Shown: positions 23,788 through 42,740 of the stretch, piece after piece
How the letters are laid out: every line of letters begins with the position of its first letter
Numbering within the stretch: position 1 is the first letter of the stretch
Source: Candidatus Neomarinimicrobiota bacterium
Lineage (GTDB): Bacteria; Fidelibacterota; Fidelibacteria; Fidelibacterales; Fidelibacteraceae
Assembly: GCA_021157965.1 (NCBI GenBank)
Contig: JAGGVO010000031.1
Coordinates: 1 to 48,720 of the forward strand
DNA length: 48,720 nt
Direction of reading: 5' to 3'
The notes under the pieces: generated by a model
What the model saw: the letters and a program-made list of their open reading frames with translations, nothing else
The model's database searches: none
What the model was told of the DNA's origin: nothing
Position numbers and translations under genes: made by a program

Positions 23788-24402
23788 ATGCCCGACATCA
23801 AAAATCTTGTCCTGGATCTTGGTAATGTAGTTGTAGATGTGGATTATCCCCGCTTTTGTCTGAAAGTGGGTATTGATGAAAAAGCTTTCGAGGCTTTTTA
23901 CGACTCGCCATTTTTCAGGGGTTTTGAAATCGGAAAGAAGACTCGGGAGGATTATTTTCGCGCTTTGGAAAAGTACACCGGATTTCCTGCTGACAGGCGG
24001 AATGAGTTAGAAAGGCAAATTCATACGGCTTTTCCCCTTCGTTTACGAACTTGGGGGATGATTCATTTTTTAAAGCAGCACATGCCTGTCTATCTTTTAT
24101 CCAATACCAATGTGGTGGATTTTGAAAACATCGATGCCCATGTCGGATTAAGAAAAGCCTTTCATAAAGTCTACCTTTCTTATGAACAAAAGCGGAGCAA
24201 ACCGGATCCTGAAACCTATCGCCACGCTGCCCGGGTATTGGGTATTCATCCGGAAGAAACCCTTTTTTGCGACGATCGGCAGGACAATATCGAAGGTGTA
24301 CGCCAGGCAGGCTGGCAGGGATATCAGGTGGAAAGCGAAGGGTCTTTTTTAACATTTCTCACAAAAACCCTGGAGCTGAATCATGGAGGATTGAGATGGT
24401 AA
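23788..24402 (+). CDS. HAD-family hydrolase, YihX-like sugar-phosphate phosphatase
   Basis: A 204-residue HAD subfamily IA phosphatase. Motif I is LDLGNVVVDVD, the GNVxVDxD variant seen in YihX-type alpha-glucose-1-phosphate phosphatases. Motif II is LSNTN. Motif III Lys is in QKRSKPDPETY, and motif IV is LFCDDRQDNIEGVRQAGW. The helical cap lies at about 15-85. It starts two bases after the TPR-like gene and overlaps the next gene by 7 bases, so it belongs to a tight operon. The natural substrate cannot be read from sequence. Confidence 0.88.
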   Translation: MPDIKNLVLDLGNVVVDVDYPRFCLKVGIDEKAFEAFYDSPFFRGFEIGKKTREDYFRALEKYTGFPADRRNELERQIHTAFPLRLRTWGMIHFLKQHMPVYLLSNTNVVDFENIDAHVGLRKAFHKVYLSYEQKRSKPDPETYRHAARVLGIHPEETLFCDDRQDNIEGVRQAGWQGYQVESEGSFLTFLTKTLELNHGGLRW

Positions 24403-25097
24403 TTATGACCCCCCGGACTCCCCGGACAAAATCCAATGTGTGGATTCCTCTGTTGTTAGGACTCCTGCTCTCGGTGTTTTATTTTTATCATGGGCGCATG
24501 AGTACGTATGAGCGTTTTTTCAGTAATAATACCATAACAGCTCCGCTGCTGTCAGTTTATTATCAATGGCTTTCGGCTGTTTTAATCTTTTTTATTATCC
24601 CTTCCCTCACCTGGACCGGCGTTATGGGTTACCACATAAAGGAAATGGGATTTCGGTTAGGGGATTGGAAAAAGGGACTTCTTGCCCTGGGGATTGGTCT
24701 TCCCCTTATGTTGCTTTATGCCTTTGGTGCTTCTCAAATGTATGAGTTCCAGGATATATATCCGCTGTATAAATATATCGGCATGGAAAGTATCTGGGTG
24801 ATTCTCCGCTATTATCTCACGGCATTTCTTTTTTATTTTTCTTATGAAGCCTTTATCCGGGGATTTATTTTTCATGCTATGAAGGATGAATTGGGTGTTC
24901 TCGGAGCCATTCTGATTGCCGCCCTTGTCGGCGCACCGGTCTACATCGGAACCTCTGAAATGGAAGGTATCATGTCCATTATCCTCCACCTGACCTTTGG
25001 TGTAGTGGCCTGGAAAACCCGCTCTTTTCTCTATTCGGCCATACTGGGATGGGTCTGGCTTGTGGCTGTGGATTGGTTCATTATTTTGGGCATTTGA
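24396..25097 (+). CDS. CPBP/Abi-type membrane protein with altered active site
   Basis: A 233-residue protein with six to seven transmembrane helices and the CPBP (type II CAAX prenyl endopeptidase-like) fold. The motif normally EExxxR reads YEAFIRGFIFHAM. The second Glu and the Arg are kept, but the first catalytic Glu is Tyr. The second motif region reads IILHLTFGVVAWKTRSF and keeps its His. The protease may be inactive or use different chemistry. The start is ATG 24396, five bases after GGAGGA and overlapping the HAD stop by 7 bases; an ATG at 24405 is an alternative. It is the last gene of the rho-led block. Confidence 0.75.
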   Translation: MVIMTPRTPRTKSNVWIPLLLGLLLSVFYFYHGRMSTYERFFSNNTITAPLLSVYYQWLSAVLIFFIIPSLTWTGVMGYHIKEMGFRLGDWKKGLLALGIGLPLMLLYAFGASQMYEFQDIYPLYKYIGMESIWVILRYYLTAFLFYFSYEAFIRGFIFHAMKDELGVLGAILIAALVGAPVYIGTSEMEGIMSIILHLTFGVVAWKTRSFLYSAILGWVWLVAVDWFIILGI

Positions 25098-25131
25098 ATC
25101 CAGGAAACTCCAAATTTTTATGTAATGTGCT

Positions 25132-25148
25132 ATAAAACACGGTTTTAT
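25132..25148. repeat. Inverted repeat ATAAAAC-acg-GTTTTAT upstream of the PqqD-like operon
   Basis: Perfect 7-bp arms with a 3-base spacer, extended outwards by GCTA/TAGC with a two-base bulge, in the A/T-rich 154-base gap before the PqqD-like gene. A run of eight T follows about 18 bases later. It could be the operator of the downstream operon or a weak terminator for the CPBP gene; its position fits either. Confidence 0.4.
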
Positions 25149-25251
25149 TTAGCATTATGAGTTAATTTTTTTTAAATGATTAAAAAAGTGTAAAATCATT
25201 ATGCTCTCTCGGGCATTCTATAGATAAAATTAATCTTCCGGAGGACTTCCC

Positions 25252-25506
25252 ATGAAATTGAAGAAAAATATTGCTGTCAGCGAAACAGGATTTATTTTTG
25301 ATCCGACAAGCGGAGATTCCTATACCCTGAATCCGATTGGAATGGAAATCGTAACCTTTTTGAAGGAAGGACTGGACCCGGAAGTCATTTCCGGCAGGAT
25401 TCTGGAAAAATACGATGTGGAAAAAGGAGTTCTGGAACGGTATCTCTACGATTTCTTTGGACAGCTAAAACAATATCAACTGATTGAAGAGGATGATGAA
25501 AGCTGA
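25252..25506 (+). CDS. PqqD-like small protein (RRE/winged-helix fold) with acidic tail
   Basis: An 84-residue protein with the PqqD-family pattern: an initial strand pair MKLKKNIAVSETGFIFDPTSG, then DSYTLNPIGMEIVTFLKEG, then an Ile/Leu-rich helix pair LERYLYDFFGQLKQYQLI. PqqD and related RRE domains bind peptides and present them to modifying enzymes. The last residues, EEDDES, form an acidic tail beyond the fold. There is no radical-SAM gene nearby; instead an ATP-grasp ligase overlaps its stop by 14 bases. A strong GGAGGACTTCCC precedes the ATG. It could be a peptide chaperone or itself the carrier on which an amino acid is loaded. It is the first gene of a six-gene operon. Confidence 0.8.
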   Translation: MKLKKNIAVSETGFIFDPTSGDSYTLNPIGMEIVTFLKEGLDPEVISGRILEKYDVEKGVLERYLYDFFGQLKQYQLIEEDDES

Positions 25507-26539
25507 AATTACTATTGCGGTCTCCGGACTGAATAATGTTGACAGTCCGGGTCCCGGAATTCCTGTCGTTCGCGGTATCCGGGATTCTGAATATTTTGAG
25601 CCCCGGATTGTGGGACTGGTTTATGAAAATCTGGAACCCGGAGCCTACATGCATGACCACGTGGATAAAAGCTACAAAGTGCCCTATCCGTCCGAAGGAA
25701 GCGGAGTGCTTATGGAACGGATTCGGGATATTCATGCTAAAGAATCCATAGATGTGCTCATTCCCAATTTCGATTCGGAGCTTTATGCCTTTATGAAATC
25801 AGAACCGGAACTGAAGCGGCTTGGCATTCATACTTTTTTACCCACACTGCAACAATTTGAAGAGCGACATAAGTCAAACCTGCCTGAATTTGGTGAAAAA
25901 TACAAGGTAAAGGTCCCTGAAAGCCGGGCTATAACGAGTATTCAAGAGATTAAAGAACTGGAAGAGGATTATGAATACCCCATGGTAATCAAGGGGAAGT
26001 TTTATGATGCATTCATTGCCTACTCATTTGAACAGGCTCAAATTTATTTCAATAAAATTGCATCCAAATGGGGATTGCCCATCGTTGTCCAGCAGTATAT
26101 CCGTGGCACCGAAGTGAATGTAGTTGCATTGGGAGACGGCCGGGGTAATACTGTCGGAGCTGTCCCCATGAAAAAGCAGTACATCACCGATAAGGGAAAA
26201 GCCTGGGGCGGGATAACCCTGGATGATCCCAAAATGTTAGACCTGACCCGCCACATTATCGGACAAACCAAATGGAGAGGCGGGATGGAACTGGAGCTTA
26301 TCCGGACCGATAAAAAGGAGCTGTATCTGATTGAAATCAATCCCCGCCTTCCTGCCTGGGTATATCTTGCCGTAGGAGCCGGACAGAACCTGCCCGAAGC
26401 CCTGGTCAAACTGGCACTGGGATATCCTGTTGAAACCTTTACGGCATACACCGTGGGCATCCTTTTTATCCGGTACTCGTATGATATGATCTGCTCTCTG
26501 CAAGATTTTCAGTCACTCACCACCCGGGGGGAGTTATAG
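25493..26539 (+). CDS. ATP-grasp ligase (CPSase/D-Ala-ligase-like)
   Basis: A 348-residue carboxylate-amine ligase that activates a carboxylate as an acyl phosphate. The N-terminal domain (1-115) opens EITIAVSGLNNVDSPGPGIP. The ATP-grasp fold has the lysine strand YPMVIKGKFYDAFIAYS, the hinge VVQQYIRGTEVNVVALGDG, the Mg-binding ELELIRTDKKELYLIEINPR (Glu and Asn of the E-x-N pair) and LPAWVYLAVGAG. The fold belongs with CPSase-like and amino-acid ligases; substrates are not deducible. The start at ATG 25493 (or 25496) lies inside the PqqD-like gene, so translation is coupled. It precedes a fold-III decarboxylase by 43 bases. The ATP-grasp plus decarboxylase pair recalls BtrJ/BtrK of butirosin synthesis, where an amino acid on a carrier protein is decarboxylated. 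Confidence 0.88.
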   Translation: MMKAEITIAVSGLNNVDSPGPGIPVVRGIRDSEYFEPRIVGLVYENLEPGAYMHDHVDKSYKVPYPSEGSGVLMERIRDIHAKESIDVLIPNFDSELYAFMKSEPELKRLGIHTFLPTLQQFEERHKSNLPEFGEKYKVKVPESRAITSIQEIKELEEDYEYPMVIKGKFYDAFIAYSFEQAQIYFNKIASKWGLPIVVQQYIRGTEVNVVALGDGRGNTVGAVPMKKQYITDKGKAWGGITLDDPKMLDLTRHIIGQTKWRGGMELELIRTDKKELYLIEINPRLPAWVYLAVGAGQNLPEALVKLALGYPVETFTAYTVGILFIRYSYDMICSLQDFQSLTTRGEL

Positions 26540-26582
26540 AAGGCGGGGAGAACCCGCAACCCAAATAAGGACTTGAAATAAA

Positions 26583-27947
26583 ATGATGAAAGATGAAAAA
26601 ATGAAAAAAATACCCTTTGAAAGACCGCTGATTCAAAAAATTAATGCAGGACTTCCAAGTAAATACGGCATGGTCCGGCGACCGGAACCTATCGAGGAGA
26701 TAGAAGGGATTTCTGTTGAATCTCTCCTGAAAGAATATGGCTCTCCACTCTTTGTTTTGTCTGAAAAGGTGCTTCGGAAGACATATAAAGAGGCATACAG
26801 GGCTTTTTCCTCGCGCTATCCCAAAGTTCGGTTTGCCTGGTCCTACAAAACAAATTATTTGAATGCCGTGTGCAAAATATTTCACCAGGAGGGCTCCTGG
26901 GCTGAAGTGGTTTCCGGATTTGAATACGATAAGGCTCTGATCAATGGAGTCCCCGGTTCAAAAATCATTTTTAACGGTCCCTATAAATCCCGGGAAGACC
27001 TGAAAAAGGCGATTGAGAATAACTCATTGATCCATATTGATCATTTTGATGAACTTTATGAACTCCTGGAGCTTGCCAAGGTTCTTGAAAAACGCCCCCA
27101 AGTGGCAATCCGGGTGAATATGGATACAGGAATATATCCCCAGTGGGACCGTTTCGGGTTTAATTATGAAAACGGAGAAGCCTGGGATGCCCTGAACCGG
27201 ATCATGATCAGTAAGCAAATAGATCTTTTGGGACTTCATACACATATCGGGACATATATGATGACGGTTCAGGCATACGAAAAGGCAGCCTTAAAACTGG
27301 CAGATCTGGCTATCGGAATTGAAAGGAAATACAAGCACACGATTAAATATATCGACATGGGTGGTGGATTTGCTTCTAAAAACACCCTGAAAGGGGCCTA
27401 TTATCCCGGCAGTGATACGGCACCCTCATTTGATGATTTTGCCGAAGCCATTGTTTCAGCCCTGATGAGATCGGAATTCAAACCGGATCATTTACCACTG
27501 CTTATTCTGGAAACCGGTCGGGCCCTGGTGGATGATGCAGGCTGGCTGGCAGGAACTGTGGTTGCCAACAAACGCCTGGCCGATGGCCGCCGGGCCACCA
27601 TTATCGATGCGGGTGTGAACCTCCTTTTTACATCATTCTGGTATGAACACGATATCCGTCCGGCAAAACACCTTTCCGAACAAACGGAAGACACTACAAT
27701 CTATGGCCCCCTCTGCATGAATATTGATGTTATCCGGGATCATATCCAGTTCCCCCTTCTGAAAAAAGGAGACCCTTATGTTATCCGGAGGATTGGAGCA
27801 TATAATAATACTCAATGGCTTCAGTTTATTACACTTCGTCCCCGGGTGATTTTGATTGATACACAAGGGAAAACCCATATTATCCGAGATAAGGAAACAC
27901 TCGAAACCCTGAACCGATGCGAGCATCTTCCGGATCACCTGACCTGA
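26583..27947 (+). CDS. Fold-III PLP-dependent decarboxylase (LysA/ornithine decarboxylase-like)
   Basis: A 454-residue alanine-racemase-fold enzyme. The PLP lysine is in FAWSYKTNYL (about residue 88). HTHIGT is the HxHIGS motif, DMGGGF binds the phosphate, ETGRALV replaces the usual EPGR, and GPLCMNIDVI carries the catalytic Cys/Asp of the partner subunit. It therefore has what is needed for amino-acid decarboxylation. The TGR for PGR change and a roughly 45-residue N-terminal extension set it apart from standard diaminopimelate decarboxylase, and no other lysine gene is near. Its position between an ATP-grasp ligase and a transporter/peptidase fusion suggests a modified or carrier-bound substrate, not free diaminopimelate. 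Confidence 0.88.
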   Translation: MMKDEKMKKIPFERPLIQKINAGLPSKYGMVRRPEPIEEIEGISVESLLKEYGSPLFVLSEKVLRKTYKEAYRAFSSRYPKVRFAWSYKTNYLNAVCKIFHQEGSWAEVVSGFEYDKALINGVPGSKIIFNGPYKSREDLKKAIENNSLIHIDHFDELYELLELAKVLEKRPQVAIRVNMDTGIYPQWDRFGFNYENGEAWDALNRIMISKQIDLLGLHTHIGTYMMTVQAYEKAALKLADLAIGIERKYKHTIKYIDMGGGFASKNTLKGAYYPGSDTAPSFDDFAEAIVSALMRSEFKPDHLPLLILETGRALVDDAGWLAGTVVANKRLADGRRATIIDAGVNLLFTSFWYEHDIRPAKHLSEQTEDTTIYGPLCMNIDVIRDHIQFPLLKKGDPYVIRRIGAYNNTQWLQFITLRPRVILIDTQGKTHIIRDKETLETLNRCEHLPDHLT

Positions 27948-27961
27948 AAAAGGAACTGCTT

Positions 27962-30142
27962 ATGAAACGTGAGTTCGATTTTAAAGGCAGTCTGCTAAAC
28001 AGCTATTCGCAAATTTTCTTTTCCGATAACCGTTTGTTTGCCGGCATTTTGATCATTGTGACCTTTGTGGATTTCTATACCGGTCTTTTTGGGCTTTTGG
28101 CGGTCCTTACAACAACTCTCCTGGCCCGCTACCTTGGATTTCATCCCTTCAAAATTCACCAGGGGTATTATGGGTTTAATTCCCTGTTGGTTGGTCTTGG
28201 GCTGGGTATTTTTTTTCAACCGGGCCCTTTGCTGGTTCTGATTGTCATTTTAGCATCGATCCTCACCCTTTTTATTGCCGTAAGCTGTGAAGGCATCATC
28301 GGCAAGTATGCCCTTCCCTACCTGAGCATTCCCTTTGTTGTGTCTATGTGGATTTTGACTCTGGCTTCCCGTGAATTTCAGGCTCTGGGATTGAATGAGC
28401 GGGGGATCTATACATTAAATGACTTGTACATCATGGGTGGTAGTTCCCTGGTACAAATGTATGACTGGTGGAATCAACTGGCAATCCATCCCTCGGTGCG
28501 TGCCTATTTTCTTTCTCTGGGAGCGATTCTCTTTCAATACAATATGCTTACAGGTATCCTGGTGGCTGTTGGACTGCTTATTTATTCCCGAATTGCCTTT
28601 ACCTTGTCCCTGCTTGGTTTTTATACGGCATACTTTTTTTATCTGCTCATCGGAGCACCCTTTTCCGAGGTGAGTTACAGCTATATTGGTTTCAACTATA
28701 TTCTGACGGCCATTGCCACTGGAGGATATTTTATTATCCCGAATAAAAATTCCTACCTGTGGGCTGTGCTGGTTATACCTCTGGTGGCGGTTCTGACGAT
28801 TGGATTTTCCCGTATTCTCGCGGTATTCTACCTGCCGGTCTATTCGCTGCCCTTTAATGTGTTGTCCCTCCTTTTTCTGTATGTTTTGAAATTTAGGGTG
28901 GATAACAGGGCAAAACTGACACCGGTGCTGGTTCAGGAAAATACTCCGGAGAAAAATCTCTACTCATACCTGAATTTTATGGAACGTTTTGGAAAAGAGA
29001 GCACAGTTCCAATTCACCTGCCTTTTTACGGTGAATGGATCGTTACCCAGGGACACGACGGCGAATACACACATAAAGACCGGTGGCGCCATGCCTGGGA
29101 TTTCGAAATTGCCGATGAGACAGGGAAAGCCTGGAAAAATTCCGGGGATTTTCGCGAGGATTATTTTTGCTATGATAAAACCATCATTGCACCGGCTGAT
29201 GGTACGGTTGAAGCCGTGGTGAATGATGTCCCGGATAATACCATCGGGGAACGAAACCTGGAACAGAACTGGGGAAATACAATCGTTATCAAACATGAGA
29301 AGGACCTGTTTACGAAATTGAGCCACCTGAAACCCGGTTCTATCCAAGTGAAACCCGGCGATAAGGTCCGGAAAGGAGATGTGCTGGCCCGCTGTGGAAA
29401 TTCTGGAAATTCCCCTTATCCCCACCTCCATTTTCAGGTCCAGCGGACGCCTTATATCGGTTCTGAGACTCTCGATTACCCCATTAGTAATTATATGCTC
29501 CGCCGGGACGAGGAATTTATCCTTCAAACTTATACCATCCCCCGGAAAGAGGACCGTATTTCTGCAGTTCAGGTGAATTCAGCCCTTAAAAAAGCTTTTC
29601 ATTTTATTCCCGGGGAAAAAATCCGCTTTACCCTGCAAGGCTCTTCCGAAGCTCTGATATGGGATGTAAAAATCAATGAATTTCTCAATAAATATATAGA
29701 ATGCCGGAAAACCGGCTCGAAAGCCTGGTTTAAAACCGATGATACCATGTTTTATTTTACTCATTTCGAAGGAGAGCGGGATTCCCTTCTGTATCACTTT
29801 TTTTGTGCGGCATACCGGGTTTGTTTCGGGTATTACAAGGGGCTTGTGATTGAAGATTCTTTTCCACTGAACATGGTGTTTTCTAAAAATAATCTCATTT
29901 TTCAGGATTTTGCTGCACCCTTTTTCCGCTATAAGAAGGGTAGATACACACTTACCTATACCAGCCAGGAAGAAACCCTCTCAGATACACGACTTCTCCT
30001 TGAATCTGCAGTGACCACCTATTCTTTTGGGAAAATCCGGTCACACATAAGCTATTCCTGTAATATTGATAACGGAGGAATGAAGGAGTTTGCAATTCAC
30101 CAGGAATCTTTAACCCGGAAGGTATCATGCGCTACAGAATAA
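27962..30142 (+). CDS. Urea-transporter-fold membrane protein fused to M23 peptidase
   Basis: A 726-residue two-part protein. Residues about 10-320 hold roughly ten transmembrane helices with the urea-transporter (SLC14/UT) pattern: LLNSYSQIFFSDNRLFAGI at the start, GFNSLLVGLGLGIFF (the UT pore-loop type GxNxxLVG), and a second repeat GFNYILTAIATGGYFI. Residues about 355-500 form an M23/LytM domain with zinc ligands in WRHAWDFEI (HxxxD) and PHLHFQV (HxH). The remaining 220 residues are beta-rich and unassigned. UT channels carry urea or small amides; M23 enzymes cut peptide crosslinks. I start at ATG 27962, eight bases after AAAAGGAA. The stop overlaps the next gene by 16 bases. Confidence 0.85.
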   Translation: MKREFDFKGSLLNSYSQIFFSDNRLFAGILIIVTFVDFYTGLFGLLAVLTTTLLARYLGFHPFKIHQGYYGFNSLLVGLGLGIFFQPGPLLVLIVILASILTLFIAVSCEGIIGKYALPYLSIPFVVSMWILTLASREFQALGLNERGIYTLNDLYIMGGSSLVQMYDWWNQLAIHPSVRAYFLSLGAILFQYNMLTGILVAVGLLIYSRIAFTLSLLGFYTAYFFYLLIGAPFSEVSYSYIGFNYILTAIATGGYFIIPNKNSYLWAVLVIPLVAVLTIGFSRILAVFYLPVYSLPFNVLSLLFLYVLKFRVDNRAKLTPVLVQENTPEKNLYSYLNFMERFGKESTVPIHLPFYGEWIVTQGHDGEYTHKDRWRHAWDFEIADETGKAWKNSGDFREDYFCYDKTIIAPADGTVEAVVNDVPDNTIGERNLEQNWGNTIVIKHEKDLFTKLSHLKPGSIQVKPGDKVRKGDVLARCGNSGNSPYPHLHFQVQRTPYIGSETLDYPISNYMLRRDEEFILQTYTIPRKEDRISAVQVNSALKKAFHFIPGEKIRFTLQGSSEALIWDVKINEFLNKYIECRKTGSKAWFKTDDTMFYFTHFEGERDSLLYHFFCAAYRVCFGYYKGLVIEDSFPLNMVFSKNNLIFQDFAAPFFRYKKGRYTLTYTSQEETLSDTRLLLESAVTTYSFGKIRSHISYSCNIDNGGMKEFAIHQESLTRKVSCATE

Positions 30143-31452
30143 TCGGGATAATCTATCTGATATGTGCTATCACTCTCTTTGCCCGGGAGCCTTTTCTCAA
30201 TACACTGACCGTGGAACAGGAAACGGCCCGATATGCTCTGAGCGGTAACTGGGATGCCGTGATCAGAACAGGTAAAACAGCCCTGGCACAAGGGATTGAT
30301 TTTTATAATCTCCGGTACAGAATGGGCATTGCCTATTACCATCTGGGGAATTATCATGCGGCGGCACGGCATTTCTACAGGGCATACCGGATCAATGACA
30401 CAGAACCTCTCTTGAAGGAGTACCTTTACTGGGCATACCGGTATGCCGGCCATGAAGCTGATGCACGGGTCCTTGCTGCCGGATTTACACAGGAACTGAA
30501 AAGAAAAGCAGGCGTTCCGGACCAGTACCCGGGGGATTACCTGAGCATCTCTTTTAACGCCGGTTTCCCTGTCGACAAATCGTTTACAGACAGTTATGTC
30601 AATGATACCGGCTTGGCTGTCAACGGATCCCAGTTTTTGTCCAAAACACTAAACTATGCAGATGTGGGAATTCAAAAAAGTCTTTCACCGCGTCTGTCTG
30701 CCTATGTAAGCTATGCCCGCTTAAAGAAAACATCTTATCTGTATGCTCAGGAAAACGGATATGCCGTGGTTAAACCCGACTATGAAACAAATCTGAATCA
30801 GGTCTATATATCCGGGACATACCACGTAATTCGGGGGACAGATTTGACAATCGGAGCCCATTTTATCAACATTTTTTATCAAAGGGACCGTTATGTGTTT
30901 GACGGTTTGGAAGGGCGGATTGTCACCGATGAAATATCAGATAATGACAAGCTGGTGCTTATGTCTGTCCGGCACCGTTTCCCCTATGTGACAACCGGCA
31001 TCACCTCGATTTTCAGCAACCTGAATCAAAAAGATCAGGTGCAGGGAGATTTACAACTTACATTTTATCCTCTTGGGAATCTCAATCTCTATGGAGGATG
31101 TATCCTGACATACCTCCACCAGAATTCCGGTGAAAATACGGTAATCACCGAACTGCTTCTTGGAGGTAAACTTCTGCCGGTGTTGTGGGCTGAGGCGATA
31201 TATTCCACCGGTGATTTGCACAATGCATCCCGGTATCAGGGCTACGTTGTGTATAACGGGATGGATGTTATCACCCGGCGCATCGGCGGGCGATGGATCA
31301 TTCCTGTCTCTGAAGATTTGACGGTCCGCCTGAATTATGCCTACCAGAAACATGAAAGTTCTTTTCATCCTGAAAATACCGGCCTGACTGAAACAAACCG
31401 GATTCACTATAAAAGTCATTCCATAACGGGAGCACTGCAATGGAATTTTTAA
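30127..31452 (+). CDS. TPR plus outer-membrane beta-barrel protein (YaiO-like)
   Basis: A 441-residue exported protein. The signal peptide is at about 1-19 (YRIIGIIYLICAITLFA). Two to three TPR-like helix pairs cover about 28-120 (YNLRYRMGIAYYHLGNYHAA and what follows). The remaining 300 residues alternate in a strand pattern (LSAYVSYARLKKTSYLYA, TDLTIGAHFINIFYQ, LTVRLNYAYQKHESSF) and end in ITGALQWNF, a C-terminal aromatic Phe as needed for BAM-assembled barrels. This TPR-then-barrel layout is that of the YaiO family. It overlaps the transporter/peptidase by 16 bases and the next gene by 13. It probably gives this system an outer-membrane port or anchor. Confidence 0.8.
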   Translation: MRYRIIGIIYLICAITLFAREPFLNTLTVEQETARYALSGNWDAVIRTGKTALAQGIDFYNLRYRMGIAYYHLGNYHAAARHFYRAYRINDTEPLLKEYLYWAYRYAGHEADARVLAAGFTQELKRKAGVPDQYPGDYLSISFNAGFPVDKSFTDSYVNDTGLAVNGSQFLSKTLNYADVGIQKSLSPRLSAYVSYARLKKTSYLYAQENGYAVVKPDYETNLNQVYISGTYHVIRGTDLTIGAHFINIFYQRDRYVFDGLEGRIVTDEISDNDKLVLMSVRHRFPYVTTGITSIFSNLNQKDQVQGDLQLTFYPLGNLNLYGGCILTYLHQNSGENTVITELLLGGKLLPVLWAEAIYSTGDLHNASRYQGYVVYNGMDVITRRIGGRWIIPVSEDLTVRLNYAYQKHESSFHPENTGLTETNRIHYKSHSITGALQWNF

Positions 31453-32060
31453 AACATCGTTACATAAAATTTATGGTCCTGTCCCTTGTATGCTGGGGAA
31501 TTCTGTATGCTCAGGATGAGGTGATAAAAGCCTTTGAAACGAGCTATACACAGGAGAAAGAGGGTGATTATCAACATGCTGCTGAAGCATTAATGGCAGT
31601 ATATAATGAAGATTCCTATGAGATAAACCTCCGCCTGGGTTGGCTGTATTATCTTGACGGGAAAATGGATAAATCCGAAACATATTACCGGAATGCAGTG
31701 AAACTCCGTCCCTATGCCATAGAGCCACGCTTAGGGCTGGCATATCCCCTGTCTTCCCAGGGGAAATGGGTGGAAATTGAAGAGATGTATCTGGATATTC
31801 TTGAAATGGATCCCCGGAATTCTATGGTCAATTACCGGATGGGTCTCATTTGTTACAACCGGGGAGAGTATGAAAAGGCAGATCGTTATCTGGAAAAAGT
31901 ATTAAATCTGTATCCCTTTGATTATGATACCCTTCTGCTGACAGCCTGGACAAAACTCCGTCTTCAAAAATACAGGGAAGCTGAAATATTGTTCCATAAA
32001 ACACTCATGGCCAGCCCCGGTGATTCATCTGCACTCGAAGGACTGGCCATGCTTCCTTAA
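31440..32060 (+). CDS. Exported TPR-repeat protein
   Basis: A 206-residue protein with an N-terminal signal or anchor (FMVLSLVCWGILYAQ, cut likely after the Ala or Gln near residue 25) and then five TPR motifs back to back: YTQEKEGDYQHAAEALMAVY, LGWLYYLDGKMDKSETYYRN, LSSQGKWVEIEEMYLDIL, MGLICYNRGEYEKADRYLEK and WTKLRLQKYREAEILFHKTL. It probably acts as a periplasmic scaffold. It overlaps the barrel gene by 13 bases and is the last gene of the PqqD-like operon. No specific partner can be named beyond its neighbours. Confidence 0.85.
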   Translation: MEFLKHRYIKFMVLSLVCWGILYAQDEVIKAFETSYTQEKEGDYQHAAEALMAVYNEDSYEINLRLGWLYYLDGKMDKSETYYRNAVKLRPYAIEPRLGLAYPLSSQGKWVEIEEMYLDILEMDPRNSMVNYRMGLICYNRGEYEKADRYLEKVLNLYPFDYDTLLLTAWTKLRLQKYREAEILFHKTLMASPGDSSALEGLAMLP

Positions 32061-32110: not shown

Positions 32111-33034
32111 CTATTTTATCCAACCCAACTCCCAGGGAATTGTTCCCTCCGGGGATTCAAAATGTTCCGGATGGAGCAGATAGGCCAGTTTCTGTGTGGC
32201 GACCACCTGCCGGGGACCGAAGTGTTTCATCAGAGCTGAGTCGTAGTAAAGAACACGGCTTCGGGTAACGGCATTTGTTTGGTCATATCCGGGGCGGGTA
32301 TATATTTCTATCAAGGGGGTAATGCCTTTCCAGCCTCCCAGTTCGGCATCAAGCCAGATAGGGGAGAGGATGATATCGGGATTTTTCTCAACGACGAGAT
32401 CATTGGATGTTCTGAACACTCCCACAGCCGTATCGCCAAATACATTTACACCCCCGGCGGCCTGAATCATATCGTGAAGGGGCGACTCACTGCCAAAGGT
32501 CCAGGGTCCCATGTGATTGATTTCCATATACACTTTTACCGGTTCCAGTTTTGAACTCGCGGCACGGATTCGGTCCATATCTGCTTTCATGTGTGCCACC
32601 ATATTTTCGGCACTTTTTGCGTTTTTCGTCACTTCACCGATTTTTAAGATACAGTCGTACACATCCTCCAAGCGGTTTGGTTCGAAATGATACACGGTGT
32701 AACCCATTGCCCTCAGGCTGTCTGCAATCTTCCGCTGCATGTTGGTATCCGTAAAAATCAAATCGGGACCGATGGAATCAATCCGGGTAAAATTGATGTT
32801 GATAAAATCTCCCACCACCTTCACCCGGCCGGCTTCTTTATCTTTCATCACCTGATCGGGGAAAAAGCAGAAACTTGTAGCCCCCAGGACCTGATTGCCG
32901 GCTCCGATTTCATATATGATTTCCGTCATGGTGGAAGAGCAACTGACAATTGTAGGTTTTTCTGTCTGCTTGCAGGCAGTGAGTGAAATGGCGAGTATGA
33001 TTAAAACAAGGATATAATGTTTGAAGAGTTTCAT
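32111..33034 (-). CDS. BtuF/FepB-type ABC substrate-binding lipoprotein
   Basis: A 307-residue class III binding protein of the type serving cobalamin, haem or siderophore importers. The lipoprotein signal ends in ISLTAC (acylated Cys at residue 21). The BtuF-like opening is PTIVSCSSTMTEIIYEIGAG, followed by VVGDFININFTRIDSIGPDLIF, the long linker helix, and ESPLHDMIQAAGGVNVFGD. No permease or ATPase follows in the window. It is the last gene of the leftward run that includes two BtuB-like receptors, which favours a corrinoid ligand. It lies 12 bases after the EamA transporter. Confidence 0.88.
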   Translation of the reverse strand: MKLFKHYILVLIILAISLTACKQTEKPTIVSCSSTMTEIIYEIGAGNQVLGATSFCFFPDQVMKDKEAGRVKVVGDFININFTRIDSIGPDLIFTDTNMQRKIADSLRAMGYTVYHFEPNRLEDVYDCILKIGEVTKNAKSAENMVAHMKADMDRIRAASSKLEPVKVYMEINHMGPWTFGSESPLHDMIQAAGGVNVFGDTAVGVFRTSNDLVVEKNPDIILSPIWLDAELGGWKGITPLIEIYTRPGYDQTNAVTRSRVLYYDSALMKHFGPRQVVATQKLAYLLHPEHFESPEGTIPWELGWIK

Positions 33035-38647: not shown

Positions 38648-40846
38648 TTATCTTTTCTCAACTGTGAATGAAACCCCCCATTCCCTTCCGGGAACCGGCA
38701 TATTTTTAATGACGCTGTATTCGGTATTGAAAAGGTTTTTCAGCTGTGCATTCACCTTAAGACAGATGGTTTTGAACGGCATCTGATATCCGAAACTGAT
38801 GTGGGATAGATTGTATGGATCCAAAGAATTATTCCAGACGTTTGTGACGTCGGTATATCGTCGGCTCACATACTGGTAGCTGTATGTCCCGTGAAAGTGG
38901 CGTATGCGTGCCGTCAGTGAGACATTCACCGTATGTTTCGGGCGGTAAACCAGGATTTTTTTATATTCTGCCGGGGCCTGTTGATTGGTGTTCCGGGCAT
39001 CCATGAACGTGTAGTTGGCCTGAAATGTCAGATTATTTTTCACCGGACTGAATTTGAGGCTGTTTTCCAGTCCCCGGATCCGGGCGCTTTGGACATTTTC
39101 GGGCATCCACAAACCGGCTTTTTCCTGCCAGATGATCATGTCGCTCAGGTAATTTTCAAAGTATGTGGATTCAAGGTAAAAGCCGTTCAGGAATGGGTAT
39201 TGAAGACGGATGCCCATATCCCAGTCCACGCCGTTTTCCGGACTCAAATCAGGGTTTCCTTTGGCCCATGCATCTTCCGGCCAGTATAAATCATTGAATG
39301 TCGGTGCCCGGTAACTGAGTCCGGTATTCATTTTCAGGGATGTAAGCCATCTTTCACCCCAATTGAAAACCAGGCCGATTTTCGGGGATAGACGGTTTGG
39401 ATAATCGGAGTTCCAGTCGTACCGGAGAGAGGGGACAAGAGCAAGTTTTTTCATCCCAAAAATATGGACAGGCAACTGGTTTTCACTGACGGTAAAAAGA
39501 TAAGCAGAGGTGCGAACCCTTTTGTCTGATGTCTGGTGATTCTGCATGTAATCCATCCTTATACCGCTTCCGTAGGTGAGAGTGCTCCAATCCTCCAGGA
39601 TACTGCGTATCTGAATTTCACTGCCGCCGGTGCGGGTTGTAAAGCGGGAATCGACTTTCTGAAGAGACTCGTCGTTGAAGTAGCGGCTCCATGAGTCGTA
39701 GTAATAGTTTTGCCACCGCAGTTCATGAATGCATGAAAAAATTTTACTGCTCAGCAGTATATTGGCCTGATTTTGCTTGTCCCATATCCGGGCACGGTAA
39801 TAATACGGTTCAATAGTACCCGGAGCACCTCGTTCTGATTTATGGTGGCGAAGGGTAAATTCCAGATGGCGTGCAAAAAGGCCCTGCCCAAGAGATGTGG
39901 CGGCACGGCCGTGTAAATCGATGGATTCTATATCCGCATTCTCGCGCGTTCTTTCCTGTCCATAATTATCCGTGAAGGTAAAATCACCTTCCGAAAGGAG
40001 ATATTTCCCTGAAGCATCCAGATCCCAATGTTTGATTTTGGCATCCACCGTGGATTCAAGGGAAAACGTTCCGAAAGAAGCACCGGTTGTTTTTACGGAG
40101 CTATGCCATCCTGTTTTTTCCTGTTTATCTGACCGGGTGATAATATTCACAACACCTCCGATGGCATCGGCCCCATATAACGCGGAGTTGCTTCCCCTGA
40201 CCACTTCAATCTTTTTCACCCCTTCCAGAGAAAGGGTGCTCAGATCCACTTCCCCTGTCTGGGGATTATTGATGCGCTGACCATCCAGCAACACCACGAC
40301 CTGACCTGAAGTAGAACCCCGGAGAGAGATGGTTTTGATGTTTCCCAATCCCCCCTGGTCTTTGATAAATACGCCCTGGATGTTTTGGAGGATTTCCCCC
40401 AGGTTCCGGGCATTTTGAAATTCCGGTGCATCCATATCCAGCACATTCACCGAAGCGGGGACATCCGTCACAAGTGTGGGACCGCGGGTGGAGGTAACCG
40501 TAATACTCTGATCATACTCGAGAACCGTCGGGCGCATAAAAATATCCAGTGTTACAGTTTCGCCGTCAGAAATGCTGACATTTTTAATTTCCTGTGTTTC
40601 AAACCCGATCATCCTGAAGATAACCGTATATTCTCCGGGAGGGACGTCAAAGATACAGTAATTTCCGTCACTGTCTGACGCGGCACCCAAAGGAATTCTT
40701 TTTAGGTAGACATTCACGGCTGCCAGTGGTGCTCCGCTTTCATGACACCGAATCGTACCACAAATCCGGCCCTGTTCATTCCCCGCCAGGAGAACGGGCA
40801 GGAAAAGAAGGATGGAAAGCAACAGAGGCCGGATCTTGTGTAGCAT
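38648..40846 (-). CDS. TonB-dependent receptor with carboxypeptidase-regulatory-like head
   Basis: A 732-residue outer-membrane receptor. The signal peptide is LLLSILLFLPVLLAGN. A CarboxypepD_reg-like domain (about 20-105) reads GRICGTIRCHESGAPLAAVN and SDSDGNYCIFDVPPGEYTV, a feature frequent in FCB receptors. The plug (about 115-235) carries RGSTSGQVVVLLDGQRINNP and SALYGADAIGGVVNIITR. The 22-stranded barrel follows (NTGLSYRAPTFNDLYWPEDA is BtuB-like). It ends VSFTVEKR, not in an aromatic residue, which is unusual for a barrel. ATG 40846 has a weak Shine-Dalgarno; a TTG at 40882 would overlap the upstream receptor. It follows that receptor by 19 bases. Confidence 0.88.
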   Translation of the reverse strand: MLHKIRPLLLSILLFLPVLLAGNEQGRICGTIRCHESGAPLAAVNVYLKRIPLGAASDSDGNYCIFDVPPGEYTVIFRMIGFETQEIKNVSISDGETVTLDIFMRPTVLEYDQSITVTSTRGPTLVTDVPASVNVLDMDAPEFQNARNLGEILQNIQGVFIKDQGGLGNIKTISLRGSTSGQVVVLLDGQRINNPQTGEVDLSTLSLEGVKKIEVVRGSNSALYGADAIGGVVNIITRSDKQEKTGWHSSVKTTGASFGTFSLESTVDAKIKHWDLDASGKYLLSEGDFTFTDNYGQERTRENADIESIDLHGRAATSLGQGLFARHLEFTLRHHKSERGAPGTIEPYYYRARIWDKQNQANILLSSKIFSCIHELRWQNYYYDSWSRYFNDESLQKVDSRFTTRTGGSEIQIRSILEDWSTLTYGSGIRMDYMQNHQTSDKRVRTSAYLFTVSENQLPVHIFGMKKLALVPSLRYDWNSDYPNRLSPKIGLVFNWGERWLTSLKMNTGLSYRAPTFNDLYWPEDAWAKGNPDLSPENGVDWDMGIRLQYPFLNGFYLESTYFENYLSDMIIWQEKAGLWMPENVQSARIRGLENSLKFSPVKNNLTFQANYTFMDARNTNQQAPAEYKKILVYRPKHTVNVSLTARIRHFHGTYSYQYVSRRYTDVTNVWNNSLDPYNLSHISFGYQMPFKTICLKVNAQLKNLFNTEYSVIKNMPVPGREWGVSFTVEKR

Positions 40847-40865
40847 GATAATATCTAAGGTTTGT

Positions 40866-42740
40866 TTAAAAATTAGCACCAAGAGTCACTTTATACATTC
40901 TGCCGGGTTCGGCCGTACCACGGACCCTCATGTAATCTTCGTCCGTCAGGTTTGTTACCTCCAGGGTGGATGCCCACTGGATTTTCATTAGTGAAAAACG
41001 GTAAGAAATATTCGAGTCGCAGGTTGTCACCTTGGGCAGCCAAAGGGTGTTGGCCGGGTTTGTGTAGCGCAGGCCGAGATAATGGACTATGAAATTCCAT
41101 TCCAGCCCTTTAAAACGGATAGTACTGGTAACATCCAATTTATTCTTCGGGCGGTATGTAATATATTTGTTGTGCCGGTTCGGATCCGGGCCCTTGTCCA
41201 GGGCCTTCATGTATGTGTATTCGGCATTGAGGACCACGCTGTTGTTAAAAAGATTCAGCGTTCCGGATGTTTCAACACCCCGGGTGCTTGTCTCGGAGAT
41301 GTTTTTGGGAGTCCACAAATTATCCATAAAAGGATCCTGTGCCCATAAAATCAGGTTGTCGATTTCATTCCGGAAGTAATTGGCGGAGAGGGACACTCCG
41401 TTAATACCGGCTGTTAAACCGATATCGTAATTAAAACCGTCTTCCGGCAGAAGATTGGGGTTTCCCACGGCAAAAGCGTCCCGGGGCCAATACAAATCGT
41501 TGAATGAGGGGGCTTTGTAGGATTTTGCGATATGGGAAACGAGGGCCAGGTTCACTGTTCCGTGGTGGGCGGCCGACAGGCTAAATCTGGGACTCAGGGC
41601 ATTTTCAAAGTCGGATGTGGCATCATAGCGAAGAGCAACCGAACTCTCAAGTTGTGAAATGAATCCTTTCAAGGGGAGTGTTCCGGTGAAAGAAGTATGA
41701 GCGCTGTGGGTGTTTCGGGTTTTTTTACCCACATCGGTACTTTCAATCCGGTCGTTCCGGTAGGAGTATCCGTAACTCACATTGAGATACTCTCCTATTG
41801 TCCCGCCCTGCTGGAGTTCAAGTCCCATGGCATAATTGTTATGATCGCTGTGTGTGCCTCCTCCCATGGCATCAGGGTCATCGAATTTGGTTTCATAATC
41901 CAGAAAATAACTCTGGGCTTTTAGATTGAAATCTTTAAACAGAACGGCTTGATCGTATGTTAGGTTGTATGATTTGTTATCGAAGCGAAGCCGGGCATTG
42001 GGGGTGGGATTGTCAATCATACCGGGCGTTCCGTTATCTGCATTGTACCAGTTGGTGGAAAGGCTGAGGTTTTTTCCTTCAGCCAGACGGTACCCGGCCT
42101 TGGCAAAAATGTTGTAAGAAGATTGCTCGTTGTTTTTCAGGATTTTTTCATTGCCGTAATAATCGGTAAAGGGAAAATTCCCGTCCCAAAGATCCCGTTG
42201 CAACGAAACAAAGGTATTCAGGCGGTTTTTGTTGTAGGAGTGGTTGATATTGTATGTCTGCCGGTTGTAGGAACCGTAGGAAATCTGAAATCCGCAATTC
42301 ATGGGTTTAACCGATTTCGATTCTGTTTTCGTTGTGATAAGGATGACGCCTCCCACAGCATCGGCACCGTATTGGGCGGAACGGCCGCCACGGAGGAGTT
42401 CGATTTTCTCGATGTTGGTGATGGGAAGACTGGCCACATTGACACCCACCGAACCCGGTGTATTCAGGCGCTGGCCATCCATGACCACCACGACTTTGGA
42501 GGCGCTGACATCCCGGAGTGAAATTTCTCCGGAAGAGTTTACGGATACCCCGGAAATGGTTTGAAGTGCATCTCCGACATTGTCACAATTGTGTTTTTGA
42601 AAATCCTCTTTCGTTAAAACCACTTCCGATGTGGATTTTGAAGGTTTTTCCTCTTCATTTTGAGCATCCTGAGCCCATGCAAGGCCGGCGAGAAGCGTAA
42701 ATATGAGGAAAACAAGGATTAAGATTTTAAACAGTTTCAT
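40866..42740 (-). CDS. BtuB-like TonB-dependent receptor
   Basis: A 624-residue outer-membrane receptor, about the length of E. coli BtuB. The signal peptide is FLIFTLLAGLAWAQ. The plug carries VVVVMDGQRLNTPGSVGVN and RSAQYGADAVGGVILITT. The barrel holds SYKAPSFNDLYWPRDAFAVG, a BtuB/CirA-type signature near the extracellular face, and the C-terminal strand ends YKVTLGANF with the required Phe. The plug and the FNDLYWP segment are shared with the neighbouring receptor, suggesting duplication. The ligand is probably a corrinoid, from the BtuG-like and CblS-like neighbours; haem or siderophore remains possible. A strong GGAGAATTTTC precedes the ATG. Confidence 0.88.
   Translation of the reverse strand: MKLFKILILVFLIFTLLAGLAWAQDAQNEEEKPSKSTSEVVLTKEDFQKHNCDNVGDALQTISGVSVNSSGEISLRDVSASKVVVVMDGQRLNTPGSVGVNVASLPITNIEKIELLRGGRSAQYGADAVGGVILITTKTESKSVKPMNCGFQISYGSYNRQTYNINHSYNKNRLNTFVSLQRDLWDGNFPFTDYYGNEKILKNNEQSSYNIFAKAGYRLAEGKNLSLSTNWYNADNGTPGMIDNPTPNARLRFDNKSYNLTYDQAVLFKDFNLKAQSYFLDYETKFDDPDAMGGGTHSDHNNYAMGLELQQGGTIGEYLNVSYGYSYRNDRIESTDVGKKTRNTHSAHTSFTGTLPLKGFISQLESSVALRYDATSDFENALSPRFSLSAAHHGTVNLALVSHIAKSYKAPSFNDLYWPRDAFAVGNPNLLPEDGFNYDIGLTAGINGVSLSANYFRNEIDNLILWAQDPFMDNLWTPKNISETSTRGVETSGTLNLFNNSVVLNAEYTYMKALDKGPDPNRHNKYITYRPKNKLDVTSTIRFKGLEWNFIVHYLGLRYTNPANTLWLPKVTTCDSNISYRFSLMKIQWASTLEVTNLTDEDYMRVRGTAEPGRMYKVTLGANF

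Follow-up and report, generated by a model that had tools for sequence, protein, structure and literature searches.

Comparison of gene neighbourhoods shows that six genes at 25252-32060 of the window (the whole 48,720-nucleotide stretch of DNA analysed here) form one functional unit. They encode a PqqD-like protein, an ATP-grasp ligase, a PLP decarboxylase, a urea-transporter-type (UT) channel fused to an M23 metallopeptidase, an outer-membrane TPR-barrel and a TPR protein. We propose, with a probability of roughly 0.35, that this cassette is a dedicated pathway in which a small amide/amine conjugate would be made in the cytosol and moved to the cell surface. The cassette looks like an overlooked, testable pathway, because it is conserved across many Bacteroidetes-like bacteria, yet no description of the gene combination was found in open-licence papers. 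This agrees with the preliminary description of the region, which matched it to no described pathway.

Organization and conservation of the cassette

The six genes are tightly packed on the + strand, and all six ORFs are present where the preliminary description placed them. The 154-base gap upstream (25098..25251, + strand), also reported there, contains no operon ORF and is the probable promoter region. The PqqD and ATP-grasp genes overlap by 14 bases, the ATP-grasp and decarboxylase genes are separated by 43 bases, and the decarboxylase and UT-M23 genes by 14 bases. In addition, UT-M23 overlaps the TPR-barrel gene by 16 bases, and the latter overlaps the TPR gene by 13 bases. Here the start of UT-M23 is taken as ATG 27962, which is common to its relatives; ATG 27917 further 5' would give an overlap. 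By ORF coordinates, the earlier count of four junctions out of five overlapping or within 15 bases, with a fifth of 43 bases, is correct.

The same gene order is found in ~80 loci from Bacteroidota, Ignavibacteria-like bacteria and Balneolota. The five successive junctions lie on the same strand in 71/71, 73/73, 63/63, 51/51 and 50/50 pairs, and since they hold in all pairs, the arrangement is far beyond chance. Among loci on contigs long enough, the PqqD gene adjoins the ATP-grasp gene in 92/92, and the decarboxylase is present in 81/83, UT in 72/75, M23 in 67/69, the barrel in 61/69 (with a related shorter barrel in four more) and the TPR protein, which adjoins the barrel in 50/50 pairs, in 58/62. 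The preliminary description had asked whether the six genes lie apart in all related genomes; in the neighbourhood check, their adjacency and order recur. Moreover, a survey of 245 genomes from the phylum to which the window belongs found the ATP-grasp enzyme in 18, and UT-M23 in precisely these 18 and no others; one of them has a broken ATP-grasp ORF.

The operon is split in three genomes, in which the decarboxylase and UT-M23 genes, when searched for again, are retained but dispersed. Gene loss was therefore rejected for three apparently gene-poor loci, whose decarboxylase and UT-M23 are found elsewhere in those genomes. An apparent fusion of the ATP-grasp and decarboxylase genes at another locus is artefactual, caused by a stretch of N. 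Comparison of the loci shows that two sub-units hold together when the operon breaks, one composed of PqqD and the ATP-grasp enzyme, the other of UT-M23, the barrel and the TPR protein.

UT-M23, used as the cassette marker, is present in 15 of 148 sampled Bacteroidota genomes (~1/10), and cultured carriers include Algoriphagus, Cyclobacterium, Rhodonellum, Labilibaculum and Ancylomarina. Bacteroidota are the probable source of the window's copy, and the cassette seems to move between phyla as a block; the phylogeny used is a quick ATP-grasp tree only, whose deep branches are tentative. Cohesion over such great distances, together with the apparent block transfer, suggests that the cassette should give a real benefit. 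None of the six genes has a PADLOC match to anti-phage defence.

The PqqD-like protein, the ligase and the decarboxylase

Gene 1 (25252..25506, + strand) encodes a PqqD/RRE-like winged-helix protein of 84 aa (Pfam PqqD, E 2.4e-9, 37.8 bits versus a cut-off of 23.4). Among solved structures, it is closest to TbiB1 and TfuB1, which are RREs of lasso-peptide systems (TbiB1, E 5e-11). Across 98 family sequences, C-termini included, the PqqD-core residues alone are conserved, and no carrier-type attachment residue (a conserved Ser, Lys or C-terminal acidic/Glu) was found. Nor was any conserved precursor peptide or small ORF found within 1.5 kb of the cassette at ~100 loci. Both results speak against the earlier suggestion that an amino acid is loaded onto this small protein. 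Small ORFs that cluster around the cassette were rejected as genes, being antisense shadows of larger ones.

Gene 2 (25493..26539, ATG 25493, + strand) encodes a 348-aa ATP-grasp ligase of the CPSase/PylC-like branch, whose nearest solved relative is the large chain of carbamoyl-phosphate synthase. The TDKGKAW and E-x-NPR motifs are invariant in its family. The best matches of the enzyme are ATPgrasp_Ter (Pfam, 2.9e-10), ATP-grasp_3 and carbamoyl-phosphate synthase, and not the microviridin-type (RimK/MvdD) ligases of graspetides.

These features bear on a RiPP pathway, in which PqqD would bind the leader of a precursor encoded at another site, the ATP-grasp enzyme would modify this precursor and M23 would cleave off the leader. 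The kinship of PqqD with lasso-peptide RREs is in line with this reading, as is the fact that no other protein accompanies the ATP-grasp enzyme so strictly (92/92), which resembles the strict pairing of PqqD-like proteins with modifying enzymes in the PqqD/RRE systems for PQQ and lasso peptides. However, the cassette has a different enzyme set from those systems, without radical SAM enzyme, cyclase or precursor peptide, no conserved small ORF lies close to it, and the ligase falls outside the RimK/graspetide branch. In addition, a peptide would be too large for the UT pore, and a survey of graspetide loci names no UT or M23 partner (PMC8939145). We thus regard a RiPP pathway as unlikely.

Gene 3 (26583..27947, + strand) encodes a 454-aa PLP decarboxylase of the alanine-racemase fold (Pfam Orn/DAP/Arg decarboxylase, 9.6e-31), in whose family the PLP catalytic residues are conserved. 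Its closest solved relative is the N-citrylornithine decarboxylase 7kh2 (E 2.9e-81), followed by DAP decarboxylase, and it is FigC/FslC-like with an altered substrate pocket. LysA is marked by an Arg on a 3-10 helix that binds the distal carboxylate and by an acidic residue beside the catalytic Cys, whereas FigC/FslC carries Met355 beside Cys354 and has the citryl group served by His357 and Arg387 (PMC7857480). In the alignment, T330, Y331, M355, H357 and R387 of FigC correspond to W353, Y354, M379, I381 and Q411 of gene 3 (PMC7857480). The aligned helix, TSFWYEH, has no Arg, and C378 is followed by Met379, which departs from LysA. The Met is shared with FigC, but the His357 and Arg387 positions are Ile/Val and Gln in cassette decarboxylases, and the NCBIfam FslC score of gene 3 is 240 versus a cut-off of 500. 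With these replacements, the acid, the Arg and the citrate-binding residues are all absent. Having lost the residues that serve DAP, basic amino acids and citrate, the enzyme probably acts on a substrate with a bulky, uncharged side chain, rather than on the DAP-decarboxylase-like substrate put forward earlier. A separate LysA-like gene is present in the window's genome.

The kinship with FigC raises the question of a metallophore, for which the ATP-grasp enzyme would replace the NIS synthetase that acts in rhizoferrin synthesis, decarboxylation of the conjugate would fall to the FigC-like enzyme and the exported product would bind metal. The cassette does resemble rhizoferrin and staphyloferrin B synthesis (FigA-FigC, SbnH), where a ligase-made amino-acid conjugate is decarboxylated by an alanine-racemase-fold PLP enzyme, and in gene 3, as in FigC, the position next to the catalytic Cys is taken by Met instead of an acidic residue. 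Moreover, an AraC-type regulator lies just 5' of the PqqD gene in 25 of ~100 loci; its N-terminal segment is Cys-rich and looks by eye like an HMA domain of the metal-binding kind, while Pfam supports only its HTH. A DUF2202 gene is nearby in ~10 loci. Against this, the cassette ligase is of the ATP-grasp and not the IucA/IucC type, the latter being found in 0/9 cassette genomes with control genomes positive. The citrate-binding His357 and Arg387 are replaced, no siderophore receptor or reductase is conserved alongside the cassette, a siderophore would by far exceed the width of the UT pore, and PqqD, UT-M23 and the TPR-barrel are additions to those systems. A metallophore pathway is accordingly rather unlikely.

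BtrJ is an ATP-grasp enzyme, and butirosin side-chain synthesis (BtrI, BtrJ, BtrK) likewise combines such a ligase, a homologous PLP decarboxylase and a small protein. In similar carrier chemistry, the small protein would be charged with an amino acid by the ATP-grasp enzyme, and the PLP enzyme would decarboxylate this amino acid in the bound state. BtrK acts on a carrier-bound amino acid (7ru7 and 2j66 are among the solved relatives of gene 3), and a substrate held on a tether would fit well into the enlarged neutral pocket. The cassette protein, however, is PqqD-like and lacks the carrier-type residues, and butirosin synthesis has no such transport genes; we consider this chemistry very improbable here.

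The UT-M23 fusion and the outer-membrane barrel

Gene 4 (27962..30142, + strand) encodes a UT-type channel with 10 TM, followed by an M23 metallopeptidase and C-terminal beta domains (Pfam UT 2.5e-63, Peptidase_M23 4e-16). To our knowledge, it is the first UT channel with a fused peptidase. The UT part of the AF2 model (pLDDT 89.5) superposes on dvUT with a TM score of 0.84, indicating a whole UT fold as in dvUT and UT-B, and the Phe slots F27/F190 and Leu247 are kept. The pore sites differ: Gln24 is mostly retained among Bacteroidota-type copies, but Glu187 of the So site is Ala in 57/58 of them and Ser/Asn/Val in a distant UT-M23 group. UT-A2 likewise varies at this site, where it has Gln (PMC4357013). 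A urease-alpha search of nine cassette genomes gave no match in seven and only 25-28-bit partial matches in two. As judged from the Glu187 replacement and the lack of a clear urease in the genomes searched, a simple urea channel role is doubtful.

The M23 residues H370, D379, H454, H487 and H489 (numbered from Lys-2), which include the zinc and catalytic residues, are invariant in 58/58 Bacteroidota-type copies. In the UT channel, K+R is 9.5 on the side of the termini versus 3.2 on the other, and D+E is 3.1 versus 7.4. Both termini of UT-B are inside (PMC5700210), and gene 4 has no hydrophobic segment after TM10. The charge rule and the homology with dvUT/UT-B thus predict a cytosolic M23 domain. 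An apparent split between UT and M23 at one locus coincides with seven consecutive T; it was kept out of the topology evidence, since it is probably a frameshift.

The predicted location makes cell-wall cutting unlikely, contrary to the preliminary description, which had M23 cleaving wall cross-links. If M23 were periplasmic, it could cut peptidoglycan while the remaining genes recycle or modify wall fragments. The intact catalytic residues would allow this, signal peptides are present on the closest free-standing M23 relatives, and DAP, the substrate of relatives of gene 3, is a wall component. The charge distribution and the dvUT/UT-B orientation (PMC5700210) nevertheless suggest a cytosolic M23, and gene 3 lacks the DAP-binding residues; wall remodelling is quite improbable. 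Given its secreted relatives, a cytosolic M23 would be unusual.

Gene 5 (30127..31452, + strand) encodes an outer-membrane protein composed of N-terminal TPR helices and a ~14-strand beta-barrel (AF2 model, pLDDT 92.7). Pfam supports the PqqD, ATP-grasp, decarboxylase, UT plus M23 and TPR calls of the preliminary description, but its YaiO call for this gene does not hold: no YaiO model appears among the NCBIfam matches of 49 gene-5 family members. Foldseek matches the barrel to FadL, OmpG, CymA and BcsC, and the combined fold resembles TPR-barrel exporters (BcsC, PgaA), in which periplasmic TPR precede an outer-membrane barrel. Unlike in those systems, the barrel has ~14 strands, the TPR region is shorter and the cassette has no polysaccharide synthase. 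OmpG/FadL-like barrels can also import solutes, a point against an export direction. Gene 6 (31440..32060, + strand) encodes a 206-aa TPR protein (Pfam TPR_2, 1.5e-15) with an apparent signal peptide, judged by eye, and is putatively periplasmic.

The proposed pathway

In the pathway that we favour, the PqqD domain would hold or position the substrate while the ATP-grasp ligase joins a carboxylate to an amine. The PLP enzyme would then strip the alpha-carboxylate from an amino acid with a large uncharged side chain, probably the ligated product; alternatively, the ligase may use an amine made by the PLP enzyme. One difficulty is that UT pores pass urea-sized solutes only, so export would need a cleavage by M23, without which the main product could not leave. 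Predicted to lie at the cytosolic face of the channel, M23 would hydrolyse the conjugate and set free a small uncharged fragment right at the pore entrance. The UT pore would take this fragment across the inner membrane and the TPR-barrel would let it out, with gene 6 as a periplasmic adaptor. The overall logic fits the earlier scheme of cytosolic enzymes followed by an inner-membrane and an outer-membrane port. More tentatively, the cassette may represent a hitherto undescribed FCB-wide envelope-spanning pathway with the UT channel turned into a 'processing port', whose fused cytosolic M23 finishes the product of the PqqD-assisted ligase and the decarboxylase before the small molecule exits via the TPR-barrel.

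The opposite direction is possible, though we find it less convincing: the TPR-barrel would admit a peptide-like compound, a small amide would pass the UT pore and be hydrolysed at once by cytosolic M23, and the decarboxylase and ligase would process the products. A hydrolase fused on the cytosolic face of the channel suits such trapping, the UT family works through passive diffusion, and FadL, OmpG and CymA, to which the barrel is nearest, are uptake or diffusion pores. However, a ligase that consumes ATP and is partnered by PqqD fits synthesis better than catabolism, the periplasmic TPR and TPR-barrel resemble exporters, and the conserved cassette contains no SusC/D or TonB gene.

If the proposed pathway is correct, environmental bacteria of an abundant group would possess a small-molecule pathway that is new, and its peptidase would be a rare case of a cytosolic M23 enzyme.

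Conservation and origin of the operon

The operon (25252-32060, plus strand) is composed of six rightward open reading frames, whose positions and spacing agree with the preliminary description. Pfam and NCBIfam models matched the families named there (PqqD, ATP-grasp, Orn/DAP/Arg-type PLP decarboxylase, UT with M23, and TPR); gene 5, labeled YaiO, matched no YaiO model. Immediately 5' of the operon, and at this place only in the genus, lies a CPBP-type intramembrane protease (24288-25094) resembling archaeomyxosortase MrtA (NCBIfam 1.1e-11, under the cut-off).

The arrangement recurs elsewhere. Named genomes were scanned for relatives of the ATP-grasp enzyme, and at least 585 were found; the 80 top-ranking ones come almost entirely from Bacteroidota, the others among them from Balneolota, Ignavibacteriota, Kapabacteria, and Chlorobiota. 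Across these 80 loci the genes recur in one order (PqqD, ATP-grasp, decarboxylase, UT-M23, barrel, TPR), with every junction on the same strand (71/71, 73/73, 63/63, 51/51, and 50/50, in order). With thirteen further loci added, some more distant, and tblastn included, contigs of sufficient length carry beside ATP-grasp the PqqD gene in 92/92 cases, decarboxylase in 81/83, UT in 72/75, M23 in 67/69, barrel in 61/69, and TPR in 58/62. Four loci scored without the barrel possess a shorter barrel instead, whose family matches the gene-5 barrel when profiles are compared (probability 94, with a lenient pairwise E of 1e-7); HMM search also bridges the two.

The six genes form one unit with sub-units. 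Three genomes with a dispersed operon nonetheless retain the genes for the decarboxylase and UT-M23 (47-67% identity); PqqD and ATP-grasp remain adjacent, joined by the decarboxylase in one, and UT-M23, barrel, and TPR remain together in two of the three.

The window genome belongs to Marinisomatota (Fidelibacterota); in the named collection, contigs of its genus are labeled Candidatus Neomarinimicrobiota/Marinimicrobia. Within the phylum, 18 of 245 genomes carry full UT-M23, six from this genus and 12 from seven other families. UT-M23 was also detected in 15 of 148 Bacteroidota genomes. The ATP-grasp family is found in 17 of those 18 phylum genomes and in no others of the 245; the eighteenth (G004) harbors the gene as a broken reading frame. 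The cassette genes adjoin in the phylum loci examined, except one (L043) with UT-M23 inverted.

In a quick ATP-grasp tree, with SH-aLRT as the only support measure, the genus is nested in a clade of 25 rows (97) that also includes Cyclobacteriaceae and Balneolota, and ten other Marinisomatota sequences form a separate long branch (100). The simplest reading is that the whole cassette would have been transferred from Bacteroidota. A contig labeled Victivallaceae (Lentisphaerota; L088), whose ATP-grasp nests among Bacteroidales, is probably misbinned.

PqqD protein, ligase, and decarboxylase

The enzyme classes of the cassette are clear and their catalytic residues conserved. Gene 1 encodes an ordinary PqqD/RRE domain, nearest to lasso-peptide RREs; across 98 sequences only PqqD-core residues are conserved and the C-terminus is variable. 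No conserved precursor-like small ORF was found close to the cassette. The ligase falls in the carbamoyl-phosphate-synthase/PylC-like branch, and its ATP-grasp motifs are invariant.

The nearest solved relative of the decarboxylase is the N-citrylornithine decarboxylase FigC (7kh2, E 2.9e-81), followed by DAP decarboxylases (1.2e-64). Its PLP residues are kept, and a distant LysA-like gene occurs separately in the same organism. Substrate-contacting FigC residues (PMC7857480, section 8; chain Cys373 is the paper's Cys354, an offset of 19, with five positions checked on the alignment) T327, T330, Y331, C354, M355, H357, and R387 correspond to T350, W353, Y354, C378, M379, I381, and Q411. Among these, W353, Y354, C378, M379, and Q411 show no variation in 14 sequences. 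The DAPDC Arg, the acidic residue of ornithine/arginine decarboxylases, and the citrate-holding basic residues are all missing from this enzyme, which suggests a substrate with a large, uncharged side chain.

UT-M23 fusion and outer-membrane barrel

Gene 4 starts, in common with its relatives, at ATG 27962, and residues are counted from Lys-2. Its UT part aligns with the urea channel dvUT over the full length (E 7e-47), and the model superposes with a TM of 0.84. The dvUT pore residues F27, F190, and L247 (sites named after PMC4357013) are retained, but at the E187 position 57 of 58 Bacteroidota-type copies have Ala and the distant group has Ser, Asn, or Val. A search of nine carrier genomes gave no clear urease, so urea is unlikely to be the sole permeant.

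Per protein, the loops on the face where both termini lie (57 residues) hold 9.5 K+R and 3.1 D+E, and those on the opposite face (82 residues) 3.2 and 7.4; the distant group has the same pattern. Both termini of UT-B are inside (PMC5700210), and no extra hydrophobic segment precedes or follows M23. Taken together, these features predict a cytosolic M23 domain. Its catalytic set is complete. This prediction is in tension with the signal peptides on stand-alone relatives of the domain. Two such proteins (loci L048:5958-6950 and L049:3318-4283, locus coordinates) share 43-46% identity with the fused domain and possibly represent its source.

The gene 5 model shows TPR helices followed by a barrel of ~14 strands (pLDDT 92.7, high confidence), with Foldseek matches of modest TM to FadL, OmpG, CymA, and BcsC-type barrels.

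Neighboring genes and proposed role

In 25 loci, an AraC regulator with a short, CC-containing N-terminal segment lies 5' of the PqqD gene, oriented either way (L067:9005-9577, L100:8813-9406, and ~23 further loci), and may be the sensor of the cassette. Pfam matched its HTH_18; metal sensing by the N-terminal segment is suggested by eye, with no such Pfam match. A DUF2202 gene adjoins the regulator near the cassette in ~10 loci (e.g. L063:8279-8926, L079:8860-9594). A siderophore pathway is the obvious reading of this context, but IucA/IucC enzymes are absent from all nine carrier genomes.

Outside the conserved cassette, the window's minus strand encodes a BtuF/heme/siderophore-class periplasmic binding protein (32111-33034), convergent with the operon, and, further on, two ORFs resembling TonB-dependent receptors (38648-42740). 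A secreted ~140-aa protein of unassigned family, with an invariant C-x4-C-x2-C...H pattern (CTLDYCYWCKxNGFH), is encoded ahead of the cassette in distant Marinisomatota (L041:13356-13793, L046:13054-13476, L038:13537-13959). Another secreted protein, with an initial EW motif and in some cases a type IX-like sorting tail, is encoded close to the cassette in loci of Marinisomatota and of Ignavibacteria-like bacteria (L041:14768-15820, L044:14500-15471, L133:4917-5759, L135:2856-3695).

We propose that a product would be synthesized in the cytosol, processed by M23 at the UT channel mouth, and exported via UT and then the barrel; we give export a probability of roughly 0.35, and consider uptake by the cassette instead somewhat less likely. 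None of the family libraries searched names the unit, and, in line with the preliminary description, systems known to us or found in open-licence papers match the cassette in at most two or three of its six components. We rate the cassette as categorically new in composition, assembled from known domain families.
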